Source of the DNA: Chloroflexota bacterium
GTDB lineage: Bacteria > Chloroflexota > Anaerolineae > B4-G1 > DUEL01
Assembly (NCBI GenBank): GCA_011388675.1
Contig: DROW01000025.1
Coordinates: 1-38,098, forward strand
Direction: 5' to 3'
DNA length: 38,098 nt
Below, piece by piece: positions 7,585 to 34,104 of the stretch. Within the stretch, counting starts at the first letter, position 1. Each line of letters starts with the position of its first letter. A program made the position numbers and the translations under genes. The notes below the pieces were generated by a model. The model had not been told where the DNA came from and ran no database searches. It worked only from the letters and a program-made list of their open reading frames with translations.

Positions 7585-8841
7585 TCAACCCTCGTCGGGG
7601 GGGGCAGGGAGGGGGAGCAGGATGTGGAAGGTGGTCCCCGGCAACCGCTCCTCGTCCCGCCCGGGGCTCTCGGCCCAGATCTTTCCCCCGTGGGCCTCGA
7701 TGATCCCACGGGCGACGGTCAACCCCAACCCCAACCCGCCGCCCTTGAAGGCGGTCTTGCTGGAGCGGTGGAGCAGCGTGTTTTCCAGGACGTAGAATCG
7801 CTCGAAGATCCGCTCCCGTTCCTCCGGATCGATGCCGATCCCGGTGTCCTGGATCATCAGGTGGATGGCCTGCTCCACCTTCTGCCCGGTGATGGTGATC
7901 CGCCCGCCGTCGGGGGTGTACTTCATCGCGTTGCTGAGCACGTTCCACAGGGCCTGATGGAGCCGTCGCCCGTCTCCCATCACCGGCGGCAGATCCTCCA
8001 GCCCCTTCACCTTAAACGTGAGGTCCCGGTCGGGGGCGAGGCTGGTGATGTCGGCGATCACGCTCCGCACCAGGTGATCGAGGAAGACGGGCCCCATCGC
8101 CAGTTCCAACCGGTTGGCGTCGATCATCGAGACGTTGAGGATGTCCTCCACGACCTGGCTCAGCCGCTGGGTGGCCTTGGCCACCTGGGCGATCAGGTAA
8201 CGGGGGCTGCCCTCCTCGTCCTCCGAGCCGGGGATCCGGGGGTCGGAGAGCAGGAGCTGGGCGTAGCCGTAGATGACCGTGAGGGGGGTCCGCAGTTCGT
8301 GGCCCGCCAAGACCACGAAGTCGGTCTTCATCTTATCGATCCGCTGGAGTTCCTCGTTCGCCTTCTGCAACTCGCGGATCTTGTCCTCCAGCCGCTCCAC
8401 CAGACGACGGCTGTACTCGACCAGGTACTCGCTCTTCTCCTCCAGCGACTCGATCTGCTCGCGGAAGCCTCCGAGGTAGGAGCGGACCTGTTCCGGAAGG
8501 CGGTCGACGTCGACCGGCTTGGGGATGTAGCCATTGCATCCCGCGATCAACGCGCGCTCCCGATCCCCCTTCAGCGTGGCCGCGGTCAGAGCGACGATCG
8601 GCACGTCCTGCAACGTCTCGATGGAACGGAGGCGGGTGGTTACCTCGTACCCGTCCAGGCCGCTGATGTTGATGTCCATCAGCACCAGGTCGGGGCGGAC
8701 CTGCTGGGCGATCTCCAGGGCGGAGATCCCGTCCTCGGCGATCACCACATCGAACCCCTCCGCCTCCAGAACCCGCTTGACCAGCCTCGCACTGGAAGGA
8801 TCGTCCTCGACGTACAGGATACGAGAGCGTCGTTCCGTCAT
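7585..8841 (-). CDS. Hybrid response regulator-histidine kinase (REC, coiled coil, HisKA, HATPase)
   Basis: REC: RILYVEDDPSSARLVKRVLEAEGF...LVLMDINISGLDGYEV...GYIPKPVDVD; HisKA LAGHELRTPLTVIYGYAQLL; HATPase ALWNVLSNAMKYTPDGG, DTGIGIDPEERERIFERF, GLGLGLTVARGIIEAHGGKIW. Confidence 0.93.
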   Translation of the reverse strand: MTERRSRILYVEDDPSSARLVKRVLEAEGFDVVIAEDGISALEIAQQVRPDLVLMDINISGLDGYEVTTRLRSIETLQDVPIVALTAATLKGDRERALIAGCNGYIPKPVDVDRLPEQVRSYLGGFREQIESLEEKSEYLVEYSRRLVERLEDKIRELQKANEELQRIDKMKTDFVVLAGHELRTPLTVIYGYAQLLLSDPRIPGSEDEEGSPRYLIAQVAKATQRLSQVVEDILNVSMIDANRLELAMGPVFLDHLVRSVIADITSLAPDRDLTFKVKGLEDLPPVMGDGRRLHQALWNVLSNAMKYTPDGGRITITGQKVEQAIHLMIQDTGIGIDPEERERIFERFYVLENTLLHRSSKTAFKGGGLGLGLTVARGIIEAHGGKIWAESPGRDEERLPGTTFHILLPLPAPPDEG

Positions 8842-8862: not shown

Positions 8863-10527
8863 CTACTTCGTCTTGCCCTCCAGCACGTCCAGGATCTCGT
8901 GAAGGAGGTCCTCGTCGGAAAAGTCCCCTTTCTGGAGAAGGCGCTGGATCTGGCTGTTCAGCCGTGCCCGCTCGCCCGGCGTCAGTTCCTTGGCGGTGAT
9001 GACGATGACCGGGATCTGAGCCAGTTCCTCATCCTCTTTAAGGACCTCCAGCACCTGGAACCCGTCCACCTCCGGCATCATCAGGTCGAGGAGGATGACA
9101 TCGGGACGTTCCCGGCGGATCAATTCGAGGCCGCTGCGCCCATCGTGGGCCTCGAAAATCTGATAGTCCCCCCGCGCCTGGAGGATACGGCGGAGCAGGC
9201 GGGACGCGCCGGGGTCGTCCTCAAGGATGGCAATGCGACGGACGCTGCGATCGAGTTGCTCCAGCGAACTGAGGAGGCCATCCTCCACGGCGGGGGCCTC
9301 GGTGGGGACCTCCACCGTCCGCGCCCAGGTCTCGCCCAGGAGGTGCTTCTCCACGGGGAAGGTGTGGCCGGAGCAGTTGACCACCACCACCTCGTCCCTG
9401 CGGATGACCCCCTCGCTGAGCAGTTTGAAGAGGCCAGCGAAGGCCATCGCCGCGGCCGGCTCCATCGAGATGCCGTCCAGTTTCGCCATCACGTGCATCG
9501 CCCGGAAGGCCTCCTCGTCGCTGACGGCGGTGAACACCCCTCCATACTCACGGATCACCCGGGCGAGGAAGGTGTAGGCCGGGCCGGGACTGCCGGTGGC
9601 GACGGTGATGATGCGGGTACGCGGATGGAGGACCGGCTCCGCCTCTTCCAATCCCTTCTGGAAAGAGTGGACCATAGGAGCACATCCCTCGGCCTGGATG
9701 CAGGCCAGCCGGGGCATCCGGTCCACCAGTCCCATCTTCACCAGTTCTTCGTACCCTTTCCAAACGCCGACCGGCCCCAGTCCGCCACTGACCGCCTGGA
9801 TGTACCAGTCGGGCGCGCGCCAGGGGGTCGGGCCGGGGCCCAGGAAGACCGGCAACTGCTCCGCAATCTCGAAGGCCACCGTCTTCATACTCTCCCGTGC
9901 GGCGATGGAGCGGATGCCTCTGTCGAGGTGGATCCCCTGGCGGCGGGCGAACTCGGCAGCGACCTGCTTGGTCTGATCGTAGGTGGCGGTCACCTTGACC
10001 ACCTCGCTCCCGTAGAGCGCCACTTCCCGCATCTTTTCCGGGGGGACCAGGCTGGTGAGGAAGGCCCAGAGTTTGATGCCCGCTCGGGCGGAGTAGGCGG
10101 AGTAGGAGATGGCGACGTTGCCGGTGGAGGCGACGACCGCCTCGGTGACGCCCATCTCCTTCATCACCGAGAGGGCGAGAGAGGCCTGGCGGTCCTTAAA
10201 GGAGCCGGTCGGCCCCTGGCGCTCGTCTTTGACGAAGATGTGGGCACAGCCCAGCATCATCTCCAGGTTGACGGCCCGGAGGAGTGGCGTGCCCCCTTCC
10301 CCCATCGTGATCCGATGGGCGTCGTCGCGCAAGGGGAGCAGTTCGCGGTATCGCCACATATCGAAGGGCCGTTCGCGCAGGGCCTCCGGCCACTGGCGAC
10401 CGACCGTCTCGTAATCGTACACCACATCCAGCCAATCCCCACCGCAGCGGGGACACTGGAGAAGAGGCCGCTGAAACGGCTCTGTGTAGCCACAGGCCGG
10501 GCAACGGAGTTTCGGGAACTCGCTCAT
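8863..10527 (-). CDS. Threonine-synthase-like PLP-dependent enzyme fused to a C-terminal CheY-like receiver (REC) domain
   Basis: N-terminal zinc-ribbon-like CPACGY...CPRCGGDW; PLP lysine motif GPTGSFKDRQAS; phosphate loop STGNVAISYSAYSARAG; C-terminal REC RRIAILEDDPGASRLLRRIL...DVILLDLMMPEVDGFQVLEVL...VIVITAKEL. Single continuous frame. The track ORF starts at a TTG (10560); ATG at 10527 with upstream AAAGGGGTG is preferred. Confidence 0.9.
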   Translation of the reverse strand: MSEFPKLRCPACGYTEPFQRPLLQCPRCGGDWLDVVYDYETVGRQWPEALRERPFDMWRYRELLPLRDDAHRITMGEGGTPLLRAVNLEMMLGCAHIFVKDERQGPTGSFKDRQASLALSVMKEMGVTEAVVASTGNVAISYSAYSARAGIKLWAFLTSLVPPEKMREVALYGSEVVKVTATYDQTKQVAAEFARRQGIHLDRGIRSIAARESMKTVAFEIAEQLPVFLGPGPTPWRAPDWYIQAVSGGLGPVGVWKGYEELVKMGLVDRMPRLACIQAEGCAPMVHSFQKGLEEAEPVLHPRTRIITVATGSPGPAYTFLARVIREYGGVFTAVSDEEAFRAMHVMAKLDGISMEPAAAMAFAGLFKLLSEGVIRRDEVVVVNCSGHTFPVEKHLLGETWARTVEVPTEAPAVEDGLLSSLEQLDRSVRRIAILEDDPGASRLLRRILQARGDYQIFEAHDGRSGLELIRRERPDVILLDLMMPEVDGFQVLEVLKEDEELAQIPVIVITAKELTPGERARLNSQIQRLLQKGDFSDEDLLHEILDVLEGKTK

Positions 10528-10556: not shown

Positions 10557-13500
10557 TCAAACACCATCCTCACCGCGCCCGATCTTCTTGAGGGCAGCGA
10601 GCACGTCTTGCAGCAACTCCTCCTGATCCAGGAGGCCCTTCTGGACCAGCGCCTCGATGCGGTGGTTCAGCAGCGCGCGGTCCTTCTCGGTCAGTTCCTT
10701 AGCCGTGACGACGATGATGGGGATGTTCCGGGTGCTTTTATCCGCCTTCAGCGCCTCCAGAACCGCGAACCCGTCCACCTCCGGCATCAGGAGGTCGAGG
10801 ATGACGATGTGGGGCCGGACCCGTTTGACGAGCGCGATGGCCTCCTGTCCGCTACTGGCTTCGACCACCTCGAACCCGTCCTGCCCCTCGATGATCCGGC
10901 GCAGCAGTTCCCGATCCTCCGCCTGGTCGTCCACCACCAGCACCCGGTGCCGTCCCTCCTCCCGGTCCAGCCGGTCCAGCGCGCTCAGCAGGTCCTGCTC
11001 CAGGATGGGTTTGACCAGATAGTCGGCGGCGCCGAGGCTCAGGCCCTTACCCTTGTCGCCGACGATCGTACACATCACCACCGGGATGTCTTTCGTCTCC
11101 GGATCGCCCTTCAGTTCCTGGATGACCTGCCACCCGTCCTTCTCCGGCATCATCACGTCCAGCGTGATGGCATATGGCTTCAGCCGCTTCGCCTCCTCGA
11201 CCACCCTGCTGGGGTCGGTGAGGCCGACGACCTGGTACCCCTGCTTGTGGAGGTAACGGCGGAAGAGGGTGATCACGCCCTCGTCGTCGTCCACGCACAG
11301 GACGACCTTGCCCGAGGGCGCGGCTGCCTCCTCGGCCCCGCTGGGCTGCGGTGCCTCTTCGGCCGCCGGCTCTTCCTCTTCCTCCTCCTCAAGGGTGGGC
11401 GGGCCCTGGATGGGGAGCCGGAAGGTGAAGGTGGATCCCTTACCGACCTCGCTTTCCACCCAGATCTCCCCGCCGTGCAGTTCGATGAAGGACTTGGTGA
11501 TGGTCAGCCCCAGGCCGGTGCCGCCGTACTTGCGGGAGGGCGAGGCGTCCACCTGGGTGAAGGCCTCGAAGATCTTGGGCAGTTTGTCCTCGGGGATGCC
11601 GATGCCCGTGTCGGAGACGGAGATGGTCACGTATTCGTCGTCGTAGGTAACCTCCACGCGGATGAAGCCCTCGTCGGTGAACTTGGCTGCGTTGGAGACC
11701 AGGTTGAGGAGGATCTGGCGGACGCGCCGCTCGTCGGCGATGATCGTCGGCAGGTCGGCGGGCACCGACTGCTGGAGTTCGATGGGCTTGTCCTTGACCA
11801 GCGCGATGGCGGTGGACATCACCCCGTGGATGACTTCCTTCAGGTCCACCGGCTTGAAGTCCAGTTCCATCTTGCCGGCCTCGATCTTGGAGATGTCCAA
11901 GATGTCGTTGATCAACCCCAGCAGGTGCTGGCCGCTGTTGTAGATCGCCTCCAGGTCCTGCCGCTGCATCTCAGTGATCGGGCCGTCGATTCCCTTGAGG
12001 ATGACGCGGGAGAAGCCGATGATGGAGTTGAGGGGGGTGCGCAACTCGTGGGACATATTGGCCAGGAACTGGCTCTTGAGCCGGTCGATCTCCTTGAGCC
12101 GCTCGGCCGTCTCCACCGCCTCCTGGTACAGCCGGGCGTTCTCCCAGGCAACGCTGAGGTTGGCCCCCACGATCTGGAGGAACTCCAGCTCATCCTCGTC
12201 CAGCGGTGGGTGCCCGGGCTGTCGCCCCAGCGAGAGGAGACCCAGGACCCGTTCACGGGCGATCAGGGGGACGTAGGCGGCGTCCTGCACCCCGAACGCC
12301 CGGATGAACTCGAGCACCGGCCCCCTGACGTGGGAGGGCACGTCCAGGACGACCCGGAGTTGCCGGGTGCGGATCGCCTCGAACATCGCCGGGATCGCCT
12401 CGGCGGTGATGAGAGAGATCTTCTCAGGGAGCGGCACCTGGACGCCCTCAGGGTCGTAGACGACGACGGGACGCAATCCCTCCGCCTCGGAATCCCACTC
12501 GAAGATCCCACACGGCATCTCCAATCGGAGCGAGATGGCCTCGCCGACCCGATGGAGCAGGTCGTCTGGGTCGAGCGAGGTGGCGCCGGCCTGAAGCACC
12601 TCGTTGATGAGAGCGCGCCGTCGGGCCGTAGCCTCCACCTCGGCGAACAGCCGGGCGTTCTCAATGGCGACGCCCGCCTGGGCGGCCAGAGACTGGAGAA
12701 GAAGGATGTCGGTCCGGCTGTAAGCGTAGGGCCGGTCGCTCTGCACGTCCAGCACGCCGATGACCTGCCCCTTGACTTCGATGGGCACCGCCAGTTCCGA
12801 GCGCGCGTCGGAGAGTTCCGGCACGGTGACGTAGCGGGGGTCGAGGAGGACGTCGTTGACCAGCACGGGCTGCCGGGTCCGGACGGCGTCGGTGGTAATG
12901 CTCGGCCGCTGGAGGTCGAGGGCGATCTTCCCCCGTTCCACGCGGCGGTCGGTGTCGCCGATGGTGCTGCCATCCTCGAAGATCAGCCGGTCCTCCTCGA
13001 CCAACAGCAGGCTGACGAAGTAGTGGCCGAACCGCTCCTTGGTGGTATCGACGATCTGGCGGACGACCGACTCCAGGTCGAGGACGGAGGTGATGGCACG
13101 GGAGATCTCGTTGATGGCCTCCAACTCCTGGGCCCGGCGGCGGGTCTCCTCCAGCAGCCGGAGGTTCTCCACAGCGATGGCCGCCTGACCGCAGAGGGTC
13201 CACAGGTTGTTGAGCAGCCGCTCCGAGAAAGTAGAGGGAACATCCCGCCCGACCAGCAGCCCGCCGACCAGGCGGGAACCGATGTTCAGCGGCACGATGG
13301 CGAAGGAGCGGATCTGGGCCACCTCCGCCAACAACCGCGAGGGCTCGTCCAGCCGCGGGTCGGCGTGGACATCCTCGACGATGAGCGGCTCGTCGGACTG
13401 CAGCAGGCGAGCAATGGCGTATTCCTCCATCGGCAACCGTGTGCCGTAGGGATGCACCGGACGGCCGTCCACGGTCCACGACTCCGCCATCGTGAGGCCG

Positions 13501-16500
13501 ATCGGTTCGTCGTCTTCGAACTCGAAGAGGAGGAGACGCGCAACGCTCAGATCGGTGTGGGCCGCGTACTCGACCAGCGCACGCCCCACCTCGGCGGGGG
13601 TGGCAGCCGCGCCGATCGCCCGACCCGTCTCGTACAGTTCCTGCGTCTCCTTCAGCGAACGCTGGGTCTCGGCGAACAGCCGGGCGTTCTCAATGGCCGT
13701 GGCCAACTGGTCGGCCATCGTCTGCAGGGCGGTAATGTCCTCTTCGGTGAAGGCCGCGGGCTTGTCGGACTGGATGGTCATCGCGCCGATGACCCGACCG
13801 CGGCTGATGAGGGGCAAGGCCATCTCCGACCGGGTCTCCGGCAGAAGGGGGTTGTCGAAGCGGACGGCCTCCGCCCCCACATCGAGGGCGATGCGGGCCT
13901 CGCCGTGGGCGGTGCACCAGCCGATCATCGACCGGCCGCCCACCTCCAGCCGGTGGCCCTGCTCGAGCATCTTCTGGCCCGCCTCGCCCGTGCCCGCGCG
14001 GAGCACAGCCCAGCGCCCCGTCTCGTCCAGCAGGAAGATACCGACGTAGTAAAGATCGAACCGCTGACGGATCAACTCCACCGTCCGCGGGAGCAGTTCC
14101 TCCAGATCCAAGATCGAGGAGGCTGCGCCGGAGACCTCGGCGGCGGTCTCCAACTGAGCGGCGCGGCGCGTGGTCTCCTCCAGCAGCCGCCGGTTCTCCA
14201 GGGCGACGGCCACCTGATCGGCGATGGTGCGGATCCGGCGGATGTGTTTCTCCCAAAGACCGGTTATCGGCCGCTGGCTGGTGAACGTCAGGAAGCCGAG
14301 CGCCCGTCCCAGCAGGCTCAGCCCGGCGGTGATCATCCCGCGCATCCCCATCGCGCGGGTGACCTCCCGCACCGGCTCCGGGATCTCGGCCTCGGGGCCC
14401 TCCATATCGGGGTAGACCACCACGAAGTCCGGCTCGTCCAGCACCCGCCGGGCCGCATCCCGGTCCTGGATGGGGAAGGCCCTCGCCGGCGGGATGGGTG
14501 TCCACCCCTCTTCGGTCTTGATCACCGTGTAGATGTCGCCGTGGGTAGGCACTCCCTCGGGGTCTGTAAGCGTAGCGATGGTGATGGAGCAGGCCTCGAA
14601 GTCCAACTGCTCGGCGATCTCCGCCGCCCCGCGCAGGATCCCCTCAATGGAGGTGGCCTCACTGATGAGGCGGGCGGCCTTGTAGAGCGCTTCCGTCTCA
14701 GCCAGTGCCTGGCGGGTCTCCTCCAGGCGGCGGATGGACTGGACGGCGACGGCGGCCTGCCCCGCGAGGGCCCGCAGGTGGCGCAGGTCCTCTTCGGCGA
14801 ACTCCCTCGGCTCGCTGTACAGTCCGCTGGCGAACCCGATCCACTGGCCCGCGACAATGAGGGGGACGAAGATGGCACAGCGGGCCTGGAGAGCCTGAAG
14901 GTAGAGGGTGCGGGTGTTGTCGTCCAGCCGCGGATCGTTCTCCAGATCAGAGAGGACGACGATCTCGTCCGGACGGAGGAGAACCTGGGCGGCCGGGAAG
15001 TTCCGGGGGGCGTACCGAGAGGGGAGGGCATCCAGCGGGAGGGAAGAGCGACGGGCGACGCGGATAGCCCATTCCGGAACGTCGCCATCGACCCACGGAC
15101 GGTTGAAGAGGAGAATGTGGGCCGCGCGATCGGCGTCGCCCAGGACGGAATAGTCGCACAGGACCTGGAGGATGTCGTCGTAGGTCTGGGCGGCGTTGAG
15201 GGCTGCGCCAGCCTGGTAGAGTTCCTCCGTCTCCGCCAGCGCTTCCTGGGTCTCGGCGAACAGCCGGGCGTTCTCCAGGGTCACAGCCACGCGGGCAGCG
15301 ACCTCCTCGACCAGCCGCTGCTCTTCCTCGGAAAAGGCCCCGGGTTCGGGGTGGGTGTAACTCAGCGTCCCCATCACCTGGCCCCTGCGGTCGAACAGCG
15401 GCACGCAGATGACGGAACGGACGGGGTCTCCCCTCTTGTGGCCCGGCAGGATCAGCCACCGGTCATCCTGATGGGTGTCCACCACCAGCGCGGATTGGCG
15501 ATGCTCCAAGACCCAAGCCTGGAGGCCACGGGTAGTCACCTGGCGGATGTACTCCTCCGCCTGTTCGGCGGTGTACTCGACCCGCTCGGGGACGCTGGAG
15601 CGGAGGAAAGGATGGCCGCCGACATCGAGGAGGATCAAGTCGGCGTACTGGGCACCCACGTAAGGGGCGACCTCCAGGGCGGCCGCCGCGGCTTCCTCCA
15701 GGGTGGGAGCCTCGCCCAGGCGGCGGCTGACCTCGTAGAGGGTGGCGAGGCGGGACCGCTCTTCCTGCACCTCCTCGAATAGGCGAGCGTTCTGGAGGGC
15801 GATGGCCATCTGGCTGGCGATCGCCGTCAGCAGGTCCAGGTGGTGCTCGCCATACGCCCGGGGTGCGGTGTAACTCTGGACGGCGAGCACGCCCAGGACC
15901 TGGTCGCCGAGCATAATCGGCACCCCCATCCAGGAGAGGGCAACCTTTCCGAACAGTTCGATCCCCAGTTCCTGCAGCCGTTCGGTGACGTTTTCCGGGA
16001 TCAGCAGCGGTTGTTTCGTCCGGAGGATGTACTCGGTGAGCCCATTTCCCCTCTTGCGCGAACGCCAGGCGACCCGTTTCCCTTCCTCTACCGCCAGCGG
16101 GAAAGTGATCAGGTCCGTCTCGGGGTCGTAGAGGGCGATGTAGAAGTTGGTGGTGTCCAGCAGCCGGGACGCGCCCTTGTAGGTTTCCTCCATGATCCCT
16201 TCCACGCTGAGGCGAGCGGTGAGGGCCTGGGCCATCTGGTTGAGTGTGGCCAGTTCTTCGGCGTGGAGCCGGGCCTCCTCGAACAGTCGGGCGTTCTCGA
16301 CGGCCACCGCCGCCTGGTTCGCCAGCGTCATCGCCAGGTTCATCTGGGCCTGGGTGATGCGGACCTCCTTGGTCCAATCCTCCAGTTCGATGACGCCGAT
16401 GGCCCGCCCTTTGACCGCCAAGGGGAGGATGATCAGCGTCTGAACCTCGTACTCCTGCATATAGGCCAACTCGGCCGGGTCGGCGTCGGGGTCGCTGGCG

Positions 16501-19500
16501 TAGACGACGAGCGGCTGGAGGGTCTCCATCACCCGGGCCGTAGCCGGATACTCCTTCAGGGAGAACGCCTCGACCTCCTCCTCCTGTACGACTTTTCCTC
16601 GCTCCTCGAGGTAGAAATCGGCGACGACGCGCATCATGCCCGTGGTCGGGTCGAGCAGGGAGACGGAGGCCTCTGGAATTCCCAGCACCTCCACGAACTG
16701 GCGGGCGACGATCCCGGCGACCCCCTCAGGCTGGAGTGGGGCCCCTGCCAGTTGCTGGCTGGCGTCGAAGAGCATCGCCAGTTCCTGCATTCGCTGCTGG
16801 GTCTCGGCGAACAGCCGGGCGTTCTCGATCGCACTGGCTGCATAGCCGGCCACCGCCTGCAACAATCGGGCCTCGTTTTGCCCGAAACCTCCGGCCCGGT
16901 TGGCCACATACAGTTCGCCGATGGATCGATCCCGCACCCGCAGCGCAACGCCACAGAAGTTCCGCACGCCCAACTGCTCCATATAGGGCAGATAGGCCGG
17001 GATGACGTTGGGATCGTCCACCCCTCGGTTGCTGTAATACACGCCGCCCCGCGCGAAGACACTGACCTCCATACCGGGGGCATCCAGGGGGACGATCCAT
17101 TCTTCGGGCAACACGAGTTCGCCCGCGGCGGAGATGTATCGGGCGATCAGGGCGTTGGCCTCCTCGTCGACCAGCAGGAGCGCGGCCGATTCGGCATCGA
17201 CGACCTGCCGGGCCTCCTCGACCAGTTGGGTCAGCAGTTCGTGCAGGTCCAACGTGGTGCTGGCTACGCCAGCGATGCGGGCCAGGGCCTCCTGCTCGGC
17301 GGCCCGCTCCTGAGCCTCGGCGTACAGACGGGCGCTGTCCAGCGCCAGGGCGACCTGCTCGGTAACCGCCTCGACCAACTCCAGTTCCTCGCGGGTCCAG
17401 GGGCGAGCCTCGTCCGTCTCCTCCACGGCAATCGCACCGATGATTTGATCCCGCAGCCGGAGCGGCGCGACCACCGTCGAGCGCTCCTCTTCTGGATCGA
17501 CCTCGGCGACGATCTCGCCCTTCTCCAGTGCTTCCTCCACCAGCGGGTCGGGGGCGGGCTCGGCGGGGGTAACCTCGATCCGGTCGTAGACGAGGGCGGT
17601 CGGGGCCCGCAACTCCTCCCACGCCATCCGCACGTGCTCCCCATAGGCGATCTGGAGTTCCTCCAGGGTACGCTGGCTTTCCTGAAAGAGGCGGGCGTTC
17701 TCGATGCCCAGAGCGATCTGGTCGGCCATCGCCTGGAGCACCGCGATGTCCTCCTCGGTGAACGCCGCCGGCTGGTCCGATTGCACGTCCAGCACGCCGA
17801 TCACCTTGTCGCGCACCTTCAGCGGCAGCGCCATCTCCGAACGGGTCAGCGGCAGGTCGGGGTTGTCGAAGAAGACGGCGTCTTTCCCCACGTCCAGCGC
17901 GATGCGAGGCTCGCCGGTGCCGGCCACATAGCCGACGATGCCGACCTCGCCCACTTTCAATCGGTGGCCCCGCCTCAGCATCCGCTGTCCGCCCTCGGAG
18001 GAGGCGGCCCGCAGGACGGCGTATTCGCCCGCGTCGTCCAGCAGGAAGATACCGGTGTGGTAGAAGCCGAACCGGTCCGAGATCAGGCGGACCACCTCAT
18101 TCAGCAGGGTGTCTATATCGCGGATCGCCGCTGCTCCCCGGGCAACCTCTACCGCCGCCTCCAACTGGGCCGTGCGGCGGGTGAGGGCGGCCGTTCGCTC
18201 CGCCACCCGCTGCTCCAGCGTGCCGACCATCTCCTGCAATTGCTCTTTCATCCGGGCCAACGCCGTCGCCAGCACGCCGACCTCGTCATCCCCCGGCGGG
18301 GGCAACGGGACATCCCACTCGCCGGAGCCGATCCGACGGGCCGCGACGGCCATCTCCCGCAGAGGGCGGACCACTCGGTAGGTGAAGAGGGAACCAAACC
18401 CGGAGGCGACGAGCAGGAGCAGGATACCCAGCGGCACCACCCATCGCTGGAACGACGAGAGCGTGGTTTCGCGGATGCTCCCCCGCAGGGCCTCCAGTGC
18501 CTGGCGAGCCAGGTACGCCTCCGCCACGTTCGCCATACTCCACCCCTGGTTCCCCACGGGGGCGTAGGCCACGTAGATCTCCCGGCCGTTGACGAAGAGG
18601 GTGTGGACGCCCGTCTTGCCTTCCCTCATCTCCGCCAGGATGGGAGCGAACTCCGGCACGGCCTCGCCCACCAGATCCGGCGCGATCTCGCCCGCGGCGG
18701 GAGGGCGGCCGAGCACGTCCAGATACGCCTGGTTGGACATCGCGATCCCGCGGCCGCTCCCGTCGATCAGGAAGGAGTAGCCGCTTCCCATCACCTGGTA
18801 CCACTCGATACTCTCAGCAAGCCCCTCCAGGGAGAGGTCGATGCCGACCACGCCGACGAACTCCCCCCGCTCGGTGTAGATCGGCGCTGCCACGGTCACC
18901 AGCAGCCCCTTGCCGGTGGCGTCCAGGTACACCTCCGACCAGACCACCTTCCGTCCGATGTTGTTTTCCGGAGCGGCCGCCAGATACCAGGGCCGCTGGG
19001 TTACCTGAAAGTCGGGGGGCACCACGCTTGCCAGGTCGATGTTGGGGTAGTAGCGGGTGATCTCCCCCTCCAGCGCCACGTAAACGGCCACCGCGTCGGG
19101 GTTGCTCTCGTAGATCGACGCCAGCACCGGGTCCAGATGAGCGCTCAGGCGCAACTTCGTCAGGAGCGATTCGTCCATCGTTACGAAGTTCGGGACGAAG
19201 ACGCTGACGGGTTCGTCCTTCCCGTTAGCGTACTGACCGTCCGCCCGCTGGTGCATCCGCTCCTCGGGATCCCAGTATCCTTCGAGATACCGGTCGGGGT
19301 GGTTGAAGATCTCCGCCGCGTATTGGGCGATCTGCGCCGCATCCTGCTCTATGTTCCTGAAAAGCAGGGTGTGTTTCTGCGCATCGCTCACTGTGACTTG
19401 GCGCAGGAAGTCGGTCGCCTGCTTGTCCATCACCTCGGCGGTGATCTGTTCGACCTGCCCCTCCACGATCCGGAGGGCGCTGAAGGCGATGTAGCCGTTG

Positions 19501-19604
19501 AGCCCTATCGTGGCGACGATGAGGCCCAGCAGCAAGATCAGGAGCCGGGTACGGATGCTTCGCCGGATGAACGGTTGACGTTGCTGCATTTTTCCGAAAG
19601 CCAT
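10557..19604 (-). CDS. Giant (3015 aa) membrane hybrid histidine kinase: dCache-like sensor, TM, HAMP, about 12 GAF domains, HisKA, HATPase, Glu-rich linker, REC, REC
   Basis: N-terminal TM, RPWYLAAAPENNIGRKVVWSEVYLDATGKGLLVTVAAPIY...GVVGIDLSLEGL (dCache-like); HAMP; about 12 iterations ending IALGIENARLF/VAVENARLFE; MSHELRTPLNSIIGF; SNAAKFTDEGF, DTGIGIPEDKLPKIFEAF; VVLCVDDD...ITLDVMMPEKDGW; HRVLVVDDQ...VILDLLMPEVDGF. Confidence 0.95.
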   Translation of the reverse strand: MAFGKMQQRQPFIRRSIRTRLLILLLGLIVATIGLNGYIAFSALRIVEGQVEQITAEVMDKQATDFLRQVTVSDAQKHTLLFRNIEQDAAQIAQYAAEIFNHPDRYLEGYWDPEERMHQRADGQYANGKDEPVSVFVPNFVTMDESLLTKLRLSAHLDPVLASIYESNPDAVAVYVALEGEITRYYPNIDLASVVPPDFQVTQRPWYLAAAPENNIGRKVVWSEVYLDATGKGLLVTVAAPIYTERGEFVGVVGIDLSLEGLAESIEWYQVMGSGYSFLIDGSGRGIAMSNQAYLDVLGRPPAAGEIAPDLVGEAVPEFAPILAEMREGKTGVHTLFVNGREIYVAYAPVGNQGWSMANVAEAYLARQALEALRGSIRETTLSSFQRWVVPLGILLLLVASGFGSLFTYRVVRPLREMAVAARRIGSGEWDVPLPPPGDDEVGVLATALARMKEQLQEMVGTLEQRVAERTAALTRRTAQLEAAVEVARGAAAIRDIDTLLNEVVRLISDRFGFYHTGIFLLDDAGEYAVLRAASSEGGQRMLRRGHRLKVGEVGIVGYVAGTGEPRIALDVGKDAVFFDNPDLPLTRSEMALPLKVRDKVIGVLDVQSDQPAAFTEEDIAVLQAMADQIALGIENARLFQESQRTLEELQIAYGEHVRMAWEELRAPTALVYDRIEVTPAEPAPDPLVEEALEKGEIVAEVDPEEERSTVVAPLRLRDQIIGAIAVEETDEARPWTREELELVEAVTEQVALALDSARLYAEAQERAAEQEALARIAGVASTTLDLHELLTQLVEEARQVVDAESAALLLVDEEANALIARYISAAGELVLPEEWIVPLDAPGMEVSVFARGGVYYSNRGVDDPNVIPAYLPYMEQLGVRNFCGVALRVRDRSIGELYVANRAGGFGQNEARLLQAVAGYAASAIENARLFAETQQRMQELAMLFDASQQLAGAPLQPEGVAGIVARQFVEVLGIPEASVSLLDPTTGMMRVVADFYLEERGKVVQEEEVEAFSLKEYPATARVMETLQPLVVYASDPDADPAELAYMQEYEVQTLIILPLAVKGRAIGVIELEDWTKEVRITQAQMNLAMTLANQAAVAVENARLFEEARLHAEELATLNQMAQALTARLSVEGIMEETYKGASRLLDTTNFYIALYDPETDLITFPLAVEEGKRVAWRSRKRGNGLTEYILRTKQPLLIPENVTERLQELGIELFGKVALSWMGVPIMLGDQVLGVLAVQSYTAPRAYGEHHLDLLTAIASQMAIALQNARLFEEVQEERSRLATLYEVSRRLGEAPTLEEAAAAALEVAPYVGAQYADLILLDVGGHPFLRSSVPERVEYTAEQAEEYIRQVTTRGLQAWVLEHRQSALVVDTHQDDRWLILPGHKRGDPVRSVICVPLFDRRGQVMGTLSYTHPEPGAFSEEEQRLVEEVAARVAVTLENARLFAETQEALAETEELYQAGAALNAAQTYDDILQVLCDYSVLGDADRAAHILLFNRPWVDGDVPEWAIRVARRSSLPLDALPSRYAPRNFPAAQVLLRPDEIVVLSDLENDPRLDDNTRTLYLQALQARCAIFVPLIVAGQWIGFASGLYSEPREFAEEDLRHLRALAGQAAVAVQSIRRLEETRQALAETEALYKAARLISEATSIEGILRGAAEIAEQLDFEACSITIATLTDPEGVPTHGDIYTVIKTEEGWTPIPPARAFPIQDRDAARRVLDEPDFVVVYPDMEGPEAEIPEPVREVTRAMGMRGMITAGLSLLGRALGFLTFTSQRPITGLWEKHIRRIRTIADQVAVALENRRLLEETTRRAAQLETAAEVSGAASSILDLEELLPRTVELIRQRFDLYYVGIFLLDETGRWAVLRAGTGEAGQKMLEQGHRLEVGGRSMIGWCTAHGEARIALDVGAEAVRFDNPLLPETRSEMALPLISRGRVIGAMTIQSDKPAAFTEEDITALQTMADQLATAIENARLFAETQRSLKETQELYETGRAIGAAATPAEVGRALVEYAAHTDLSVARLLLFEFEDDEPIGLTMAESWTVDGRPVHPYGTRLPMEEYAIARLLQSDEPLIVEDVHADPRLDEPSRLLAEVAQIRSFAIVPLNIGSRLVGGLLVGRDVPSTFSERLLNNLWTLCGQAAIAVENLRLLEETRRRAQELEAINEISRAITSVLDLESVVRQIVDTTKERFGHYFVSLLLVEEDRLIFEDGSTIGDTDRRVERGKIALDLQRPSITTDAVRTRQPVLVNDVLLDPRYVTVPELSDARSELAVPIEVKGQVIGVLDVQSDRPYAYSRTDILLLQSLAAQAGVAIENARLFAEVEATARRRALINEVLQAGATSLDPDDLLHRVGEAISLRLEMPCGIFEWDSEAEGLRPVVVYDPEGVQVPLPEKISLITAEAIPAMFEAIRTRQLRVVLDVPSHVRGPVLEFIRAFGVQDAAYVPLIARERVLGLLSLGRQPGHPPLDEDELEFLQIVGANLSVAWENARLYQEAVETAERLKEIDRLKSQFLANMSHELRTPLNSIIGFSRVILKGIDGPITEMQRQDLEAIYNSGQHLLGLINDILDISKIEAGKMELDFKPVDLKEVIHGVMSTAIALVKDKPIELQQSVPADLPTIIADERRVRQILLNLVSNAAKFTDEGFIRVEVTYDDEYVTISVSDTGIGIPEDKLPKIFEAFTQVDASPSRKYGGTGLGLTITKSFIELHGGEIWVESEVGKGSTFTFRLPIQGPPTLEEEEEEEPAAEEAPQPSGAEEAAAPSGKVVLCVDDDEGVITLFRRYLHKQGYQVVGLTDPSRVVEEAKRLKPYAITLDVMMPEKDGWQVIQELKGDPETKDIPVVMCTIVGDKGKGLSLGAADYLVKPILEQDLLSALDRLDREEGRHRVLVVDDQAEDRELLRRIIEGQDGFEVVEASSGQEAIALVKRVRPHIVILDLLMPEVDGFAVLEALKADKSTRNIPIIVVTAKELTEKDRALLNHRIEALVQKGLLDQEELLQDVLAALKKIGRGEDGV

Positions 19605-19646: not shown

Positions 19647-21440
19647 CTACGGCTCGGGCGAGCCGTCGTCTCCCGCGCCGGTCGTCGCGCCCGAGGCCGT
19701 ATCGCTGGCGGCCCCCACGCGCAACTGAATCCGCGTCCTATCGACCCCGAGGGCCAGCCCCAACTCCCGCACTGCCGTCCGCAGAATGGCCTCGGGGTCC
19801 ATCGAAGCACGGATGCGGGCGGTGATCTCGGCCAGCAGCCGGTCGCGCGCGGCGCGGCGCTGGGTTTCCTCCATCAGACGCGCGCTCTCCAGAGCCAGCG
19901 CCAGACGGCTGGCGATCTCTTCCATCAGCTGGACGATCTCCGGTGGCACGTTCGGCGCGGAGAAACGGACGTTCAACGCGCCGATGACCTCCCCTCGCAG
20001 CCGGACCGGCACGGCCAGCACGCTGCCGGCGACTCGACCGTCTCCTTCCTCCCGAACCGGGCGGACCACCGAGCGGCCCTCCCGCAGCACCCGGCGGGTC
20101 TCCTCCGGTACCTCCTCCATCGGCTCGAAGGCCAGGTGGCGGTAACGGAGACCCCGCCACCCCCGCCTCGTGGCCCGCCACGCCTCCCGCGCGTACTCTC
20201 CGTAGAGCCGCTCCAGCTCTCGCACCGTCTGCTGCATTCGCTCCAGCAACCGGGCGTTCTCGATGGCGACCGCCAACTGGTCGGCCAGGATCTGCAAGAC
20301 CGAGACGTCCTCCTCCGTGAAGGCAGCTGGTCGCTCTGATTGGACGTCCAGCACGCCGATGGTCCGCCGCCCCACCTTCAACGGCAGCGCCATCTCCGAC
20401 CGGGTATGGGGGAGGTCCTGATTATCAAAGAAGACGGCGTCTTTCCCCACATCCAGGGCGATGCGCGGCCTGCCTCGTGCGGCCACATAGCCGACGATCC
20501 CCGCCTCGCCTACTCTCAGCCGGTGGCCCCGCTCCAGCATCCGCCGTCCGCCTTCGGAGGAGACGGCACGGAGAACGGCGTACTCGCCCTCCCCGTCTAC
20601 CAGGAAAATGCCCACGTGATAGAAGCCAAATCGCTCAGAGATGAGGCGGACAGCCTGGTCCAAAAGCGTCTGTACGTCCCGGATAGACGCGGCATCCCGA
20701 GCGATCTGGGAAGCGGTCTCCAACTCCAGCGAGCGGCGCTCCAATTCGGCGGTTCGCTCGGCAACCCGTTCCTCCAGCGTGCGCTGGTGCTCCTCCAGTT
20801 CCTGCGTCGTCACCCGCAATCGAGCGAAGGCCGCGTGCAGGCTCCGCATATTCAAGAAAGTGAGGAGAGCAACCGTGGAGATGAGCATATTCCACATCGT
20901 GGTCATACGGATGAAGTCCAAAGCCCCGTCAAAGGTAAAGGGCGGGGTGTAGAGACCGATCATCCCAAGAAAGGAGAGGAGTAGAAAATAGAACAACGCC
21001 AAACCCGTCATCCCCAGGGCGTACCCAGGAGCCAACAGCGTCCCAGCGATGGTGATCGTCCAGATGTAGAGGAGCCAGCCCGGAGAACGAACACCGTCAA
21101 AGAGTAGGATCGCCAGGGCGATGCCGAAGAAGTTCGTCCACACATACAGCCGGATCACCTGCTGAAGGTATCCTTTCTTGACGTAAACGATGCTAAGGAG
21201 GGAAATCGGGACGAAAGCGAGGGGGAAAGTGACTGCCAAGCCGGCCACCGGGCCGGGAAGCAGGCCTCGAACCCACGCGATGAGGAAAGTCAGCGCGATC
21301 GCGAGCACGATCCCCGTGCTGATCACCATGAGTGTGTTGAAGAGCCGACCCAGTCGCGCTACCTCCTCGTCGGTCGTCTCCATACTGACCAACCACTCCC
21401 ACCACTCGGCCAATCCAGCCTGTCTCTCTCTCTCTTGCAT
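19647..21440 (-). CDS. Membrane GAF-domain sensor without kinase domain: N-terminal multi-TM region, coiled coil, GAF, divergent GAF, conserved short tail
   Basis: Hydrophobic N-terminus (VISTGIVLAIALTFLIAWVRGLL...), ASIRDVQTLLDQAVRLISERFGFYHVGIFLVDGEGEYAVLRAVSSEGGRRML; ends PEAILRTAVRELGLALGVDRTRIQLRVG...; no HisKA/HATPase. ATG at 21440 (MQERERQ) with GGGGAGG RBS preferred over the track start at 21533. Confidence 0.88.
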   Translation of the reverse strand: MQERERQAGLAEWWEWLVSMETTDEEVARLGRLFNTLMVISTGIVLAIALTFLIAWVRGLLPGPVAGLAVTFPLAFVPISLLSIVYVKKGYLQQVIRLYVWTNFFGIALAILLFDGVRSPGWLLYIWTITIAGTLLAPGYALGMTGLALFYFLLLSFLGMIGLYTPPFTFDGALDFIRMTTMWNMLISTVALLTFLNMRSLHAAFARLRVTTQELEEHQRTLEERVAERTAELERRSLELETASQIARDAASIRDVQTLLDQAVRLISERFGFYHVGIFLVDGEGEYAVLRAVSSEGGRRMLERGHRLRVGEAGIVGYVAARGRPRIALDVGKDAVFFDNQDLPHTRSEMALPLKVGRRTIGVLDVQSERPAAFTEEDVSVLQILADQLAVAIENARLLERMQQTVRELERLYGEYAREAWRATRRGWRGLRYRHLAFEPMEEVPEETRRVLREGRSVVRPVREEGDGRVAGSVLAVPVRLRGEVIGALNVRFSAPNVPPEIVQLMEEIASRLALALESARLMEETQRRAARDRLLAEITARIRASMDPEAILRTAVRELGLALGVDRTRIQLRVGAASDTASGATTGAGDDGSPEP

Positions 21441-21468
21441 TCGATCCTCCCCGACCATTTCTCGGACG

Positions 21469-22656
21469 CTACCGACCACCCAACTCCCGTTTGGCCCAAT
21501 CCACCAGCAAGGTCTGGACTGCCCACTGGACAAGGAAACTCAACCGCCTCCATATCAGCCGCTGGAGTACAGGGGACCGGAGTCGGTAAATCAGCCTCGC
21601 CAGCAGGGCACGACGGCTCAGGACCTTCCCCATCTCACTTTGCAAAACCCGTTCCCGATAGTCCGTGAAAGAGAAATCCCCGCGCTCGAAGGCGCCGGCG
21701 ATGGCCCGCGCGGCGATGCGACCATACCCTAGGGCAGGGCCGATCCCTTCGCCAAAGAGGCCATCCACCCCCGCAGCGTCCCCCACCAGCAGGATGCGGG
21801 AAGCGGAGAAGGGATTACGCACGTCAAACCGGTGGATCGCCGCCCCATCCAGGGCGTAATCCTCCAGACGGTAGCCGTGCTGGGCCAATTCCTCGGCGAG
21901 GTACTCCCGTATTTGCCGACGAGACTTGCCCGGAACGGCCGCACTGTCGTAAATGCCCCAGCAACGCATCGGTCGGCCCTGGAGATGGCTGGGGAAATCC
22001 CAAATGTAACCGGGCACCCCCTCAGAAATGCAGGAGAACTCGAAGAAGGCCTCGTCCTCTTTATGGGGCGAGGCCCCAGGACGGGGAGGGGCCATAATCA
22101 GCACGGCACGGGCGAGACCGGCTCGGTACTCCCTAGCGATGGCGTGCCGGACGACGCTGTGAGCCCCATCCGCGCCCACCACTACCCTGGCCCGGTAACT
22201 ACCACGGGAGGTGACGACCTCCACCTCGTCCGGGCGGGGGATCACCCTTCGCACCCGGGTTCCCTCCTGGATGACGATGCCGCGCTCCCGGGCCTTCCGG
22301 ACCAGCCAGGCGTCGAACTCCTCCCGGCGGACAACGTGGAAGGCGAAGGGGCTGCCAACCGGCCGTATGGGGGTTCCCTTCCCCTGGTACTCGAAGTACG
22401 ACCACCGGGCATCCTCGTGGGGAACCTCGGAGAGATCCAAGCCCAGTTCCTCAAGCACCCGATCCACATCGGGTAGGAGCCCTCCCGCGCACGGCTTCGG
22501 CCGAGGATGTTGGGCCTTTTCCAGGACCAGCGTGCGCCCGACCAGATGGGGGGCGAACCGCAGGAGGTAGAGGGCCGTGGAGATCCCTGCTGGCCCTGCC
22601 CCGACGATGATCACGTCGTACAATATGGCTCGTTCCTCTGCAGCGTTCGTTGACAT
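21469..22656 (-). CDS. Geranylgeranyl reductase family FAD-dependent oxidoreductase
   Basis: YDVIIVGAGPAGISTALYL (Rossmann GxGxxG), PKPCAGGLL, VVVGADGAHSVVRHAI, GYIWDFP (YxWxFP motif), ILLVGDAAGVDGLFGEGIGPALGYGRIAA. Confidence 0.88.
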   Translation of the reverse strand: MSTNAAEERAILYDVIIVGAGPAGISTALYLLRFAPHLVGRTLVLEKAQHPRPKPCAGGLLPDVDRVLEELGLDLSEVPHEDARWSYFEYQGKGTPIRPVGSPFAFHVVRREEFDAWLVRKARERGIVIQEGTRVRRVIPRPDEVEVVTSRGSYRARVVVGADGAHSVVRHAIAREYRAGLARAVLIMAPPRPGASPHKEDEAFFEFSCISEGVPGYIWDFPSHLQGRPMRCWGIYDSAAVPGKSRRQIREYLAEELAQHGYRLEDYALDGAAIHRFDVRNPFSASRILLVGDAAGVDGLFGEGIGPALGYGRIAARAIAGAFERGDFSFTDYRERVLQSEMGKVLSRRALLARLIYRLRSPVLQRLIWRRLSFLVQWAVQTLLVDWAKRELGGR

Positions 22657-22726
22657 CGCTCTCGTCCCTCGCTACCTGAATGACCGTGCCTCGACCAGCC
22701 CGCATAGCACTAGTCGATGGCGATCC

Positions 22727-24607
22727 TCATTCCTCGCCGCTGGAGTCCACCCCCGCCTGCTCTCTATATCCGTCGCCCTCCTCCGGACCGAGGTAAACGG
22801 CAATCTCCTCCACCTCGGGCAGCCGGGCCAGTTCGCGCAGCGCAGTTTGCAACAGGGTCTCAATGTCCAGCGACCGGGTCAACTGGGCCGTCATCTGGCT
22901 GAGCATCCGCTCCCGTGCCGCTCGCTCCTGCGTCTCCTCCAGGAGCCGTGCGTTCTCCAGGGCCAGGGCGATCTGCTCGCTGATCTCCTCGACCAGCCTC
23001 CGTTCCTCTTCCGACCACGGGGGCTGCTCCTCCGTGCGGTGGAGGAAGATAGAGCCGATCCTCTGGCCCCAAAGCCGGATCGGGATCATCAATCGACGGC
23101 CATTCCCTCTTTCGGCGGCCATCCCGGGGGGCTTCGGGAGGGGTTCCACGGTCACCCCGGTGTATCGGTAGGCGGTCGGGCGCTGGGAAACCCACCGCCG
23201 CCACGCCTCCCGAACGCGCTCCCCGTACAGTCGTTCCAACTCCTGTAGCGCGCGCTGGCTCTCTTCCAGCAGGCGGGCGTTCTCGATGGCCAACGCGATC
23301 TGGTCGGCCATCACCTGCAACACCGCCACGTCCTCCTCCGTAAACGCCGCCGGCTGCTCCGACTGCACGTCCAGCACGCCGATCACCCGTCCATACACCC
23401 GCAGCGGCAGCGCCATCTCCGAGCGGGTCAGCGGCAGGTCGGGGTTGTCGAAGAAGACGGCGTCCTCGCCCACGTCCAGCGCGATGCGCGGCTCGCCGGT
23501 CTCGGCTACATAGCCGACGATGCCGACCTTGCCCACGGCCAGTTTGTGGCCCCGCTCCAGCATCCGCCGACCGCCCTCGGAGGAAGCGGCCCGCAGGACG
23601 GCGTACTCGCCCGTTTCGTCCAGCAGGAAGATACCGGCGTGGTAGAACCCGAAACGATCGGAGATCAGCCGGACCGCCTCGGTCAACAGGGTGTCCACGT
23701 CCCGAATCGCCGCGGCCTCCCGCGCCACCCTCGCCGCGGCCTCCAGTTGCATCGTACGGCGCTGAAGGGTTTCTGTCCGCTCGGCCACCCGCTGTTCCAG
23801 GCTGGTGTAAAGTTCCTCTAACTGCTCAGCCATCAGGTTGAAGGTGCGGGCCAGTTGGCCGAACTCGTCCTCTCGGGTAATCGGCACTCGCTCGTCGAAC
23901 CGGCCTTCGGCCAGCCGTCGGGCGGATGCCCCTAGCCGGTTCAATTCCCGGACCACCCCTTCCACGTTGACAATAGTGACCAGGGCGACCCCCACCAACA
24001 AGAAGATGATCGCGAGGGTCGGGCCGGTGACCAACCGGCGGGCAGCCAGGGTGGCCCGCTCCTGCGCCTGCTGCCGACGATACCGGGCGGTGGTTACCAT
24101 CCGATACACATTCCACTCCGTCTGCCTGTGCATCTCCAGAAGCCGGGTGGCGCGAATCTGCACGGCCGTCCAGTTGTGCGCCTCAGCATACCGGATCGTC
24201 GGCACGGCGGTGTCCAGGATCTCCTGCAAACTACTGACCGTCTGCTCCATATGGCTGCGGAGGGGATCGTCCTCCGGCAGGAGGGCAGCCTGCGCGATCA
24301 GTTGATCCTTCCGCGCCTCGAGCGCGTGCGCAGCCGCCCCGACGTTGTCGGCGAACGAGGAGGCGATCTGCCGCTCCCTCTCGGCCTGGATCGTCAAGAT
24401 CAATCCGGCAACCCAGTGCTGGGCCTCCAAGGCGGTGGAGAGTTGTTGCTCCGCTATCTGCAGTTGGACGATCGCGCTGGCGAGGGTGGTGATCTGCTCG
24501 AAGAAGAGCACGCCGGTGATAAACAGGAGCACCGTGACCACCGCCAGGCCGATACCCAGCCGGGCCCGCATACTCATACGGTACATAGGACGCTTTCTTG
24601 CCTTCAT
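22727..24607 (-). CDS. Membrane GAF-domain sensor without kinase domain: TM, periplasmic helical domain, TM, HAMP, GAF, divergent GAF, conserved tail
   Basis: RARLGIGLAVVTVLLFITGVLFF ... VTGPTLAIIFLLVGVALVTIVN, HAMP-like ASARRLAEGRFDERVPITREDEFGQLARTFNLMAEQL; GAF RFGFYHAGIFLLDETGEYAVLRAASSEGG; no kinase motifs. Confidence 0.9.
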   Translation of the reverse strand: MKARKRPMYRMSMRARLGIGLAVVTVLLFITGVLFFEQITTLASAIVQLQIAEQQLSTALEAQHWVAGLILTIQAERERQIASSFADNVGAAAHALEARKDQLIAQAALLPEDDPLRSHMEQTVSSLQEILDTAVPTIRYAEAHNWTAVQIRATRLLEMHRQTEWNVYRMVTTARYRRQQAQERATLAARRLVTGPTLAIIFLLVGVALVTIVNVEGVVRELNRLGASARRLAEGRFDERVPITREDEFGQLARTFNLMAEQLEELYTSLEQRVAERTETLQRRTMQLEAAARVAREAAAIRDVDTLLTEAVRLISDRFGFYHAGIFLLDETGEYAVLRAASSEGGRRMLERGHKLAVGKVGIVGYVAETGEPRIALDVGEDAVFFDNPDLPLTRSEMALPLRVYGRVIGVLDVQSEQPAAFTEEDVAVLQVMADQIALAIENARLLEESQRALQELERLYGERVREAWRRWVSQRPTAYRYTGVTVEPLPKPPGMAAERGNGRRLMIPIRLWGQRIGSIFLHRTEEQPPWSEEERRLVEEISEQIALALENARLLEETQERAARERMLSQMTAQLTRSLDIETLLQTALRELARLPEVEEIAVYLGPEEGDGYREQAGVDSSGEE

Positions 24608-26709
24608 CGCTGCTCCTCCTCGCCGGAGATCGAGGCCCTTCCCCCGTCGCCCACCTCCAACCGGATCAGCCCCTCGGAGGCCTGGAGAGCCCGGCTCAGT
24701 TCCCGCACGGCGGTGCGGAGGATCGCGTCGATGTCAGCAGAGGCCCGGATGCGGGCGGAGACCTCCGCCCGCAACCGCTCGTGGGCGGCCCTCCGCTGCG
24801 TCTCCTCCATCAGGCGGGCGTTCTCCAGCGCCAGGGCCAGCCGGTCGGACACCGCTTCGACGAGGGAGACGACCTCCGGCGGCACGGCCTCGCCTTCGAA
24901 CCGAAGGTTCACCACGCCGATCACCCGATCCCGCAGCCGGATCGGCACGGCCAGCACACCCATCCCCTCCCGGCCGTTCCCCTCCGCGGTGATGGAGAAC
25001 GTGATCGGGCGGCCCTCTCTGCACGCCCTGACCGCCTCCGGGTAGGTCTCCCCCACCGGCTCGACGGACACACCTCGGAACCGATACCCGATGGGTCGGC
25101 TGATCTCTCTGAAAGCGCTCTCCCACAGGAGGCGCGGGGTGAGGTCGGCCGTGGCCTCCAGTCCGTATGCCGCCTGCTCCGCCTCCCGGACCCGCCGCAG
25201 GTGTTTCATCGCGGTGGCAACTTGGTCGGCGATGGCCTGTAGCGTTGCCACGTCGTTCTCGCTGAAGGCGGCAGGGGTCCGGCTCTGGACGTCGAGCACG
25301 CCGAGGACGCGCGCCCCGGCCTGCAGGGGGATCGCCACCTCTGATCGGCCTCCCTCCAGATGTGGCCCCGCCTTCGCCTCCCCCTCGACATCGGAGAGCC
25401 ACTGAAGGCGGCGGGTCCGGATCGCCCTACCCACGGCCCCCGCCTCCTCCACCCGCCACCGATGCCCGGGCGACAGTTCACCTCCTCCCTCCCCGGCCGC
25501 CACCGCCAGGATGACGTGCGCCTGCCGGTCGTCCACCACGTAGGCGGCGACGTGCTCGAACCCCAGCCGGTCGTGAAGCAGTCGCACCGACCGTTCCAGC
25601 AGTTCGCTGATCTCCTCGGTGGCGGCGCTGATCCGCGCCACCTCTGCCACCGCCCGGATGCGCCGCAATTCCTGCCGCAGCATCTCCTCCGCCCGCTTGC
25701 GCTCCGTGGTCTCCTGGAGCGTGATCAGCCGACCGACGACCTCTCCCGCCTGGTCGCGCAGGACCGTCGCCTGGGCCGCAAACGTCCGTCCCCCCAGGAT
25801 GACCTCCGTCCCCTCTTCCGTGCGGAGGAGACGAAGCAGTTCGGGGTGCCGACTCAGCACCCGCTCCGCCGACTTTCCGGCCACCTCCAGCACGGAGAGC
25901 CCCAGCAGTCGCTCGGCCTCCGGGTTCAGGTCGGTGATCCGACCACGGTCATCGAGGACCAGCGTGGCGATAGGGAGTGCTTCGACGATCGCCTCCTGGG
26001 GCACCGGCGCGACCTCCAGCAGATGGGAGCGAAACAGCCCCCAGACCAGCACCGCGCCCGCCACCACGAAGCCGAAAGGGACCAGGTCCAGCGGCGCAGG
26101 GAAGAGGTGGAAGATGGAAAGTACGCTGCCGACGAGGGGGGAGAGCAAGGCGAGCAGGAGGGAGAGGGCCTGCCTTCGATAGAAGGCCGGAGCGCGGACG
26201 AGCATCAAGGCGAGAAGGGCGCTTCCGCCGATGACCAGGAGGTAGGAATAGATCGTGTGGAACCAGAAGGCCGGGCCGTGCGCGGTGCTCAGCAACGTCA
26301 GCGAGCCGTAGGAGACCAGTTCGGTCTGCGCCCAGAACCACTGATGGACCTCGTTGGTCCACACCAGAACCAGAACGACGGCCGGTTCGATGGAGAGGAG
26401 AGCGTAAGCCCACGAGGTCAGCCACTTCTTCCCGTAGCCGGTGTACCGCACGGCAAAGATCAACCAGGTCGCCGGGACCCAGACGATGCCGAGGTAGCGG
26501 AACTTGGCCCAGAAGAGTTTGCCCGCCAGATCGGTGCTGAGCAGCCGGAAGGCGTATCCCAGCGACCAGATGGCGACGAAGGCCATCATCGCCCCCAGCG
26601 TCATCGCGCCGGGAGACGGCCGGCGACGCCAAGCGACGATCGCCACGACCGCGGCGAGGATCGCTGCTATGAGTGCCACCAGCGCGTAGCCAGAGAACTG
26701 CAACTCCAT
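24604..26709 (-). CDS. Membrane sensor: 7TM N-terminus, PAS, GAF, divergent GAF, conserved tail; no kinase domain
   Basis: MELQFSGYALVALIAAILAAVVAIVAW..., 7TM histidine-kinase-like N-terminus; PAS EALPIATLVLDDRGRITDLNPEAERLLG...LQETTERKRAEE; GAF HDRLGFEHVAAYVVDD...SEVAIPLQAGARVLGVLDVQS. Track start at 27027 reads into the overlapping upstream gene; ATG at 26709 preferred. Confidence 0.88.
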   Translation of the reverse strand: MELQFSGYALVALIAAILAAVVAIVAWRRRPSPGAMTLGAMMAFVAIWSLGYAFRLLSTDLAGKLFWAKFRYLGIVWVPATWLIFAVRYTGYGKKWLTSWAYALLSIEPAVVLVLVWTNEVHQWFWAQTELVSYGSLTLLSTAHGPAFWFHTIYSYLLVIGGSALLALMLVRAPAFYRRQALSLLLALLSPLVGSVLSIFHLFPAPLDLVPFGFVVAGAVLVWGLFRSHLLEVAPVPQEAIVEALPIATLVLDDRGRITDLNPEAERLLGLSVLEVAGKSAERVLSRHPELLRLLRTEEGTEVILGGRTFAAQATVLRDQAGEVVGRLITLQETTERKRAEEMLRQELRRIRAVAEVARISAATEEISELLERSVRLLHDRLGFEHVAAYVVDDRQAHVILAVAAGEGGGELSPGHRWRVEEAGAVGRAIRTRRLQWLSDVEGEAKAGPHLEGGRSEVAIPLQAGARVLGVLDVQSRTPAAFSENDVATLQAIADQVATAMKHLRRVREAEQAAYGLEATADLTPRLLWESAFREISRPIGYRFRGVSVEPVGETYPEAVRACREGRPITFSITAEGNGREGMGVLAVPIRLRDRVIGVVNLRFEGEAVPPEVVSLVEAVSDRLALALENARLMEETQRRAAHERLRAEVSARIRASADIDAILRTAVRELSRALQASEGLIRLEVGDGGRASISGEEEQR

Positions 26710-26728
26710 TCGCCTTGCCCCCTCTCTT

Positions 26729-28429: not shown

Positions 28430-28443
28430 TCCGGTTTCTCCTC

Positions 28444-33897: not shown

Positions 33898-34104
33898 ACC
33901 CGGCCCCGGGACCTCCAACGGCCTCATTCTGGACATCGATCAGATCGGCACCCCAACCATCCGGAACCCATTAAGCGCACAAACGGGTTCCCACCGCATC
34001 ATCGGCGTGCTTCCCGACGAAGCCACCGTAAGCGCAGGAACCCGCCCCTTTCCCGCAGCGCGCCCTTTTCCGGGCCGATCACCCAGAGGACGTTGTGCTA
34101 ACCC

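Follow-up and report, generated by a model that had tools for sequence, protein, structure and literature searches.

Can a receiver (REC) domain place a metabolic enzyme under the direct control of a sensor kinase? The question is raised by one gene (P0001) in the 38,098-nucleotide stretch of Chloroflexota DNA analysed here (contig DROW01000025.1, hereafter the window), in which a PLP enzyme resembling threonine synthase (TS) and a REC are encoded as a single protein.

The frame is unbroken over 554 aa counted from its ATG, close 5′ of which sits an AAAGGGG stretch (Table 1). The initial annotation had placed the boundaries of the gene exactly and gave no strand, which is minus. Its description of a single-frame PLP enzyme with a C-terminal REC was borne out by one open reading frame and by Pfam matches to PALP (E 1.7e-61, far over the cut-off) and Response_reg (E 1.2e-19; 71 vs. 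a cut-off of 30.2 bits), and every motif that it named (SFKDR, STGNVAIS, LEDD, LLDLMMPEVDG, VITAKE, QKG and SGHTFPVEKHLLG) was found in P0001. The four N-terminal cysteines, putatively metal-binding, are kept in 91 of 92 aligned fusions, the remaining row being a gap there. An AlphaFold model of the protein has a mean pLDDT of 88.6, with low-confidence stretches at residues 389–397 and 407–428.

Table 1. Features of the window, with positions counted along the whole stretch.
Feature	Position	Strand	Basis and remarks
REC-HisKA-HATPase kinase, 418 aa, adjoining the fusion downstream	7585..8841	minus	Pfam; recurs in some form A loci
PLP enzyme–REC fusion gene (P0001), 554 aa	8863..10527	minus	Pfam; 92 fused homologues
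REC, residues 432–544	8896..9234	minus	Pfam; D437, D481, K533 in 92/92
Predicted phosphoacceptor Asp, D481	9085..9087	minus	92/92
Flexible linker, residues 407–428	9244..9309	minus	pLDDT <50
Fold-type II PLP enzyme domain (PALP), residues 73–386	9370..10311	minus	Pfam; best PDB matches are threonine synthases
Family-specific PLP-phosphate loop SGGxGP, residues 247–252	9772..9789	minus	S, G, G, G, P each 92/92
STGN substrate/cofactor loop, residues 134–137	10117..10128	minus	92/92
PLP Schiff-base lysine, K111 (SFKDRQ)	10195..10197	minus	92/92; role by alignment with T. thermophilus TS K61
Zinc-ribbon-like four-Cys N-terminus (C9, C12, C25, C28)	10444..10503	minus	Cys in 91/92 fusions
Giant hybrid histidine kinase, 3015 aa, directly upstream of the fusion	10557..19604	minus	Pfam
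Co-directional run upstream of the giant kinase	19647..33936	minus	Pfam; small gaps or overlaps
ParA/MinD-like ATPase (AAA_31), in the same run	30725..31579	minus	Pfam

The initial annotation would have counted absence from all relatives against the fusion. Relatives carry it, and the architecture was found in 92 distinct Chloroflexota homologues, those of the isolates Thermanaerothrix daxensis and Levilinea saccharolytica among them, whose alignment shows the same order of domains and both active sites throughout. K111, S134-T-G-N137, D437, D481 and K533 are intact in 92/92 fusions, position 436 is E or D and position 511 T or S throughout; all 92 possess the acidic pair, phosphoacceptor Asp, Thr/Ser and Lys of a REC, as well as the PLP lysine and STGN motif of threonine synthases. 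The REC appears competent for phosphorylation, as had been proposed. Further invariants of the family include R103, Q114, K187, F193, G204, M214, W241, Q244 and H388, together with the SGGxGP loop and TGxPG. Nei–Gojobori estimates from four relatives gave a dN of about 0.03–0.18 vs. a dS of about 0.4–1.7 for the enzyme and REC domains, and purifying selection acts on both.

Matches over the full or nearly full length occur in 42 of 60 related genomes (the window's own counted), and a scan of named genomes returned about 39 fused loci, all in Chloroflexota and including both isolates. In a sample of the phylum, a match at E ≤ 1e-100 was obtained in 42/400 genomes, six of the 42 belonging to one family outside the window's class and each of the matches listed spanning about residues 7–549; several of these survey counts rest on the matches listed and are to be read as at least the number given. 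Fusions are known from Anaerolineae, Thermoflexia and one out-of-class Chloroflexota family, and the PLP enzyme–REC fusion is an old, conserved protein of many Chloroflexota.

The gene stands in a 26-kb co-directional run (7585–33936, minus strand) of 11 genes with small gaps or overlaps, nearly all of them signalling genes: three histidine kinases, ParA, one FAD-dependent oxidoreductase, and five proteins that have GAF but no kinase domain, four of which also bear HAMP, MASE11 or 7TM domains. The part of the run that lies upstream of the giant kinase consists of membrane/GAF sensor genes, the FAD oxidoreductase, ParA and one more kinase. The giant kinase itself is of unusual length and carries Cache, HAMP, about 11 GAF, HisKA, HATPase and two REC domains by Pfam; it is probably the cognate kinase of P0001. 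A His-Asp phosphorelay had been envisaged in the initial annotation, and a histidine kinase was indeed found by domain scan directly upstream of the fusion in 62 of the 68 loci whose upstream flank measures 800 bases or more. In two of the other six (L130 and L134, fusions of one family), the scan found no histidine kinase nearby. In a tree built on few columns, RECs of the fusions fall together with the final REC of the kinases beside them, which is only suggestive of a local origin.

The observations are that the two domains are fused, that the fusion is conserved and keeps the active-site residues of both domains, that a kinase is adjacent and that the enzyme has diverged from TS, as described below. 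From them we propose, with about even confidence, that the protein is a kinase-phosphorylated response regulator whose REC switches a divergent PLP enzyme of the TS superfamily that acts on something other than O-phosphohomoserine. The GAF-rich histidine kinase next to it, as cognate partner, would phosphorylate Asp481, phosphorylation would alter the REC surface, and the altered REC would switch enzyme activity across the flexible linker, most simply via oligomeric state or active-site access, so controlling an enzyme whose product may be a specialised amino acid. Since a giant sensor kinase of its own usually lies beside the fusion, the enzyme is probably switched or positioned directly and not by way of gene expression. 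We count against the proposal the 6/68 loci in which the domain scan found no upstream kinase. An AlphaFold view of the PLP–REC interface, as suggested initially, did not deliver one: a fixed REC–enzyme interface is not evident in the model and the linker is disordered, so direct allostery between REC and enzyme would be hypothetical.

The loci fall into two forms. Form A fusions have one REC, and the kinase upstream of them is in most cases a hybrid, rich in GAF domains, that carries two RECs at its C-terminus. Form B fusions are a paralogue group about 50% identical to the window protein; in many relatives they have a second REC with a conserved Asp, and their loci there include CheY-like genes as well as a GNAT acetyltransferase about 300 aa long. 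The conservation of this acetyltransferase beside form B fusions extends from Anaerolineae to the out-of-class family (L118:1661-2584, L146:2523-3446 and others). One form B locus also has a REC–adenylate/guanylate cyclase fusion between the kinase and the PLP enzyme fusion (L118:5671-6768, minus strand), and in another a canonical-type threonine synthase gene (L151:9362-10549, plus strand; 577 vs. 303 bits) comes right after the fusion and a CheY-like gene.

The main rival to switching through D481, possible but in our view doubtful, is that the REC places the enzyme, docking it on a membrane sensor assembly of GAF sensors, giant kinase and ParA, where the product would be made locally or split between daughter cells. 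Three observations favour docking: many form A loci have, just upstream of the kinase, a homologue of the ParA-type ATPase, the run holds sensor genes without kinase domains, and the linker is long and disordered. The fully conserved phosphoacceptor site, however, favours a phosphorylation-dependent role, though docking could itself depend on phosphorylation, and ParA was not seen in form B loci of the window's order or in the out-of-class family. As judged from these sequence comparisons, switching appears the most likely role of the REC.

An enzyme-domain tree separates the fusions, together with four cyanobacterial homologues that lack a REC, from 19 TS-like rows (support 100/100, branch length 1.43); the domain is one clade, well supported and with a long branch, that falls outside the known threonine synthases. 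The REC-less rows nest within the fusion group, beside L071/L072 and L049, with support of 100/92 and 100/100 on the enclosing branches. They come from 4/244 genomes of a cyanobacterial sample (E 1e-72), and searches at the same threshold in three more phyla (237, 250 and 246 genomes), run without a positive control, returned no homologues. Plasmid-borne spread was rejected, since coverage of the query fell short of 80% in every plasmid record. The simplest account, not a certain one given distant outgroup rows, would be one old fusion followed by transfer to cyanobacteria and loss of the REC.

These cyanobacterial proteins (among them L172:9066-10283, L174:9313-10509 and L175:9200-10462) keep most enzyme motifs and are encoded outside signalling clusters. 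They bear on a reading that we consider unlikely, in which the PLP domain is a sensor or scaffold that binds an amino acid or PLP and gates the REC, as PAS or GAF domains may in other regulators that lack an output domain. Almost every other domain of the run is a signalling domain, and REC-PAS-GAF regulators without a clear output exist (PMC5847659); yet the complete PLP site is kept in 92/92 fusions and REC-less versions persist away from signalling genes. The latter, nested in the fused clade, argue for a real enzyme with its own chemistry, and the output domain of P0001 is probably an active, divergent PLP enzyme of the threonine-synthase superfamily. The REC-less gene of L174 lies near or next to a GH3-family gene and that of L172 is flanked by an MFS transporter gene and an ATP-grasp gene; such neighbours hint at conjugation of a specialised amino acid, although a set of four genomes is too small to be relied upon. 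We give little credence to an undescribed output class in which a phosphorelay-controlled PLP enzyme would make a specialised amino acid as an internal or released signal on a ParA-positioned Chloroflexota membrane sensor assembly.

A view of the enzyme as an ordinary threonine synthase, one that turns O-phosphohomoserine into threonine and has gained a REC, would agree with its closest solved structures, threonine synthases both by sequence and by fold, and with the REC-less cyanobacterial homologues, which barely pass TIGR00260 (170 and 175 vs. 167.1 bits). With threonine synthase (ThrC; PRK08197/NF006050, TIGR00260; PDB 2d1f, 2zsj, 1uim) the fusion has in common the fold, the SFKDR PLP lysine and the STGN loop, and many relatives also have the four-Cys N-terminus. 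It is, however, only about 30% identical to solved threonine synthases, misses every curated TS cut-off (264.6 vs. 303 bits for NF006050, 147.1 vs. 167.1 for TIGR00260, and the others too), and has an SGGxGP loop where T. thermophilus TS has GNAGNI, an SGHT tail and the C-terminal REC. In the 92-sequence alignment, the positions of T. thermophilus TS N154, S155, R160 and R242 are replaced. Within the loop NSVNPxRxEGQKT, whose residues in TS we take to contact the substrate phosphate, S155 is G and Q164 is M in 92/92 fusions and R160 has become mostly A, S, C or T. The source genome moreover has a separate, canonical TS gene that passes two TS cut-offs (610 vs. 303 bits). These points, together with the tree position, disfavour an ordinary threonine synthase, which we regard as improbable, and the substrate is probably not O-phosphohomoserine, as first suspected from the motifs. 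TIGR00260 is blunt for this clade, since the REC-less forms narrowly pass it, and automatic annotation of the fusion clade as threonine synthase is probably wrong. The only threonine-pathway context found in the source genome (81% complete) was a weak partial ThrB match.

Cysteate synthase (TIGR03844; PDB 9k3c) is likewise a TS-derived PLP enzyme with another substrate and shows that the fold can be re-purposed; that identity was rejected for P0001 at 111.8 vs. a 324.9-bit cut-off. The joining of two separate genes by assembly or annotation error has a negligible probability: the window's assembly is fragmented (268 contigs, 81% complete), but the identical fusion occurs across dozens of independent assemblies, isolates and several single-contig genomes included, and P0001 is neither chance nor assembly error because its domain order and active sites recur in 92 homologues.

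In PleD- and CheB-type response regulators, a REC governs an attached enzyme that acts in signalling or on receptors; the fusion has a REC-borne enzyme in common with both, whereas its enzyme looks metabolic. REC domains attached to metabolic enzymes, which place the enzyme under a histidine kinase, have been noted before, with archaeal examples of narrow range that include KaiC-like and BcsA-like proteins, thioredoxin reductase and PPDK (PMC5847659). The present fusion differs from these in its fold-type II PLP enzyme, its C-terminal REC and its occurrence in several Chloroflexota families. The initial view that a biosynthetic PLP output is undescribed holds in part: the principle was already known (PMC5847659), and we found no TS-like or PLP enzyme as response-regulator output in a literature search whose coverage of subscription journals was thin. 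The fold-type II PLP enzyme as REC partner and the depth of its conservation appear to be new.

The family is well defined, with clear invariant residues, natural REC-less versions and available isolates, which makes clean, separate tests of enzyme activity, phosphorylation and localisation possible. Such control would show two-component signalling acting straight on amino-acid chemistry, without transcription, in Chloroflexota, a phylum whose signalling is little studied.
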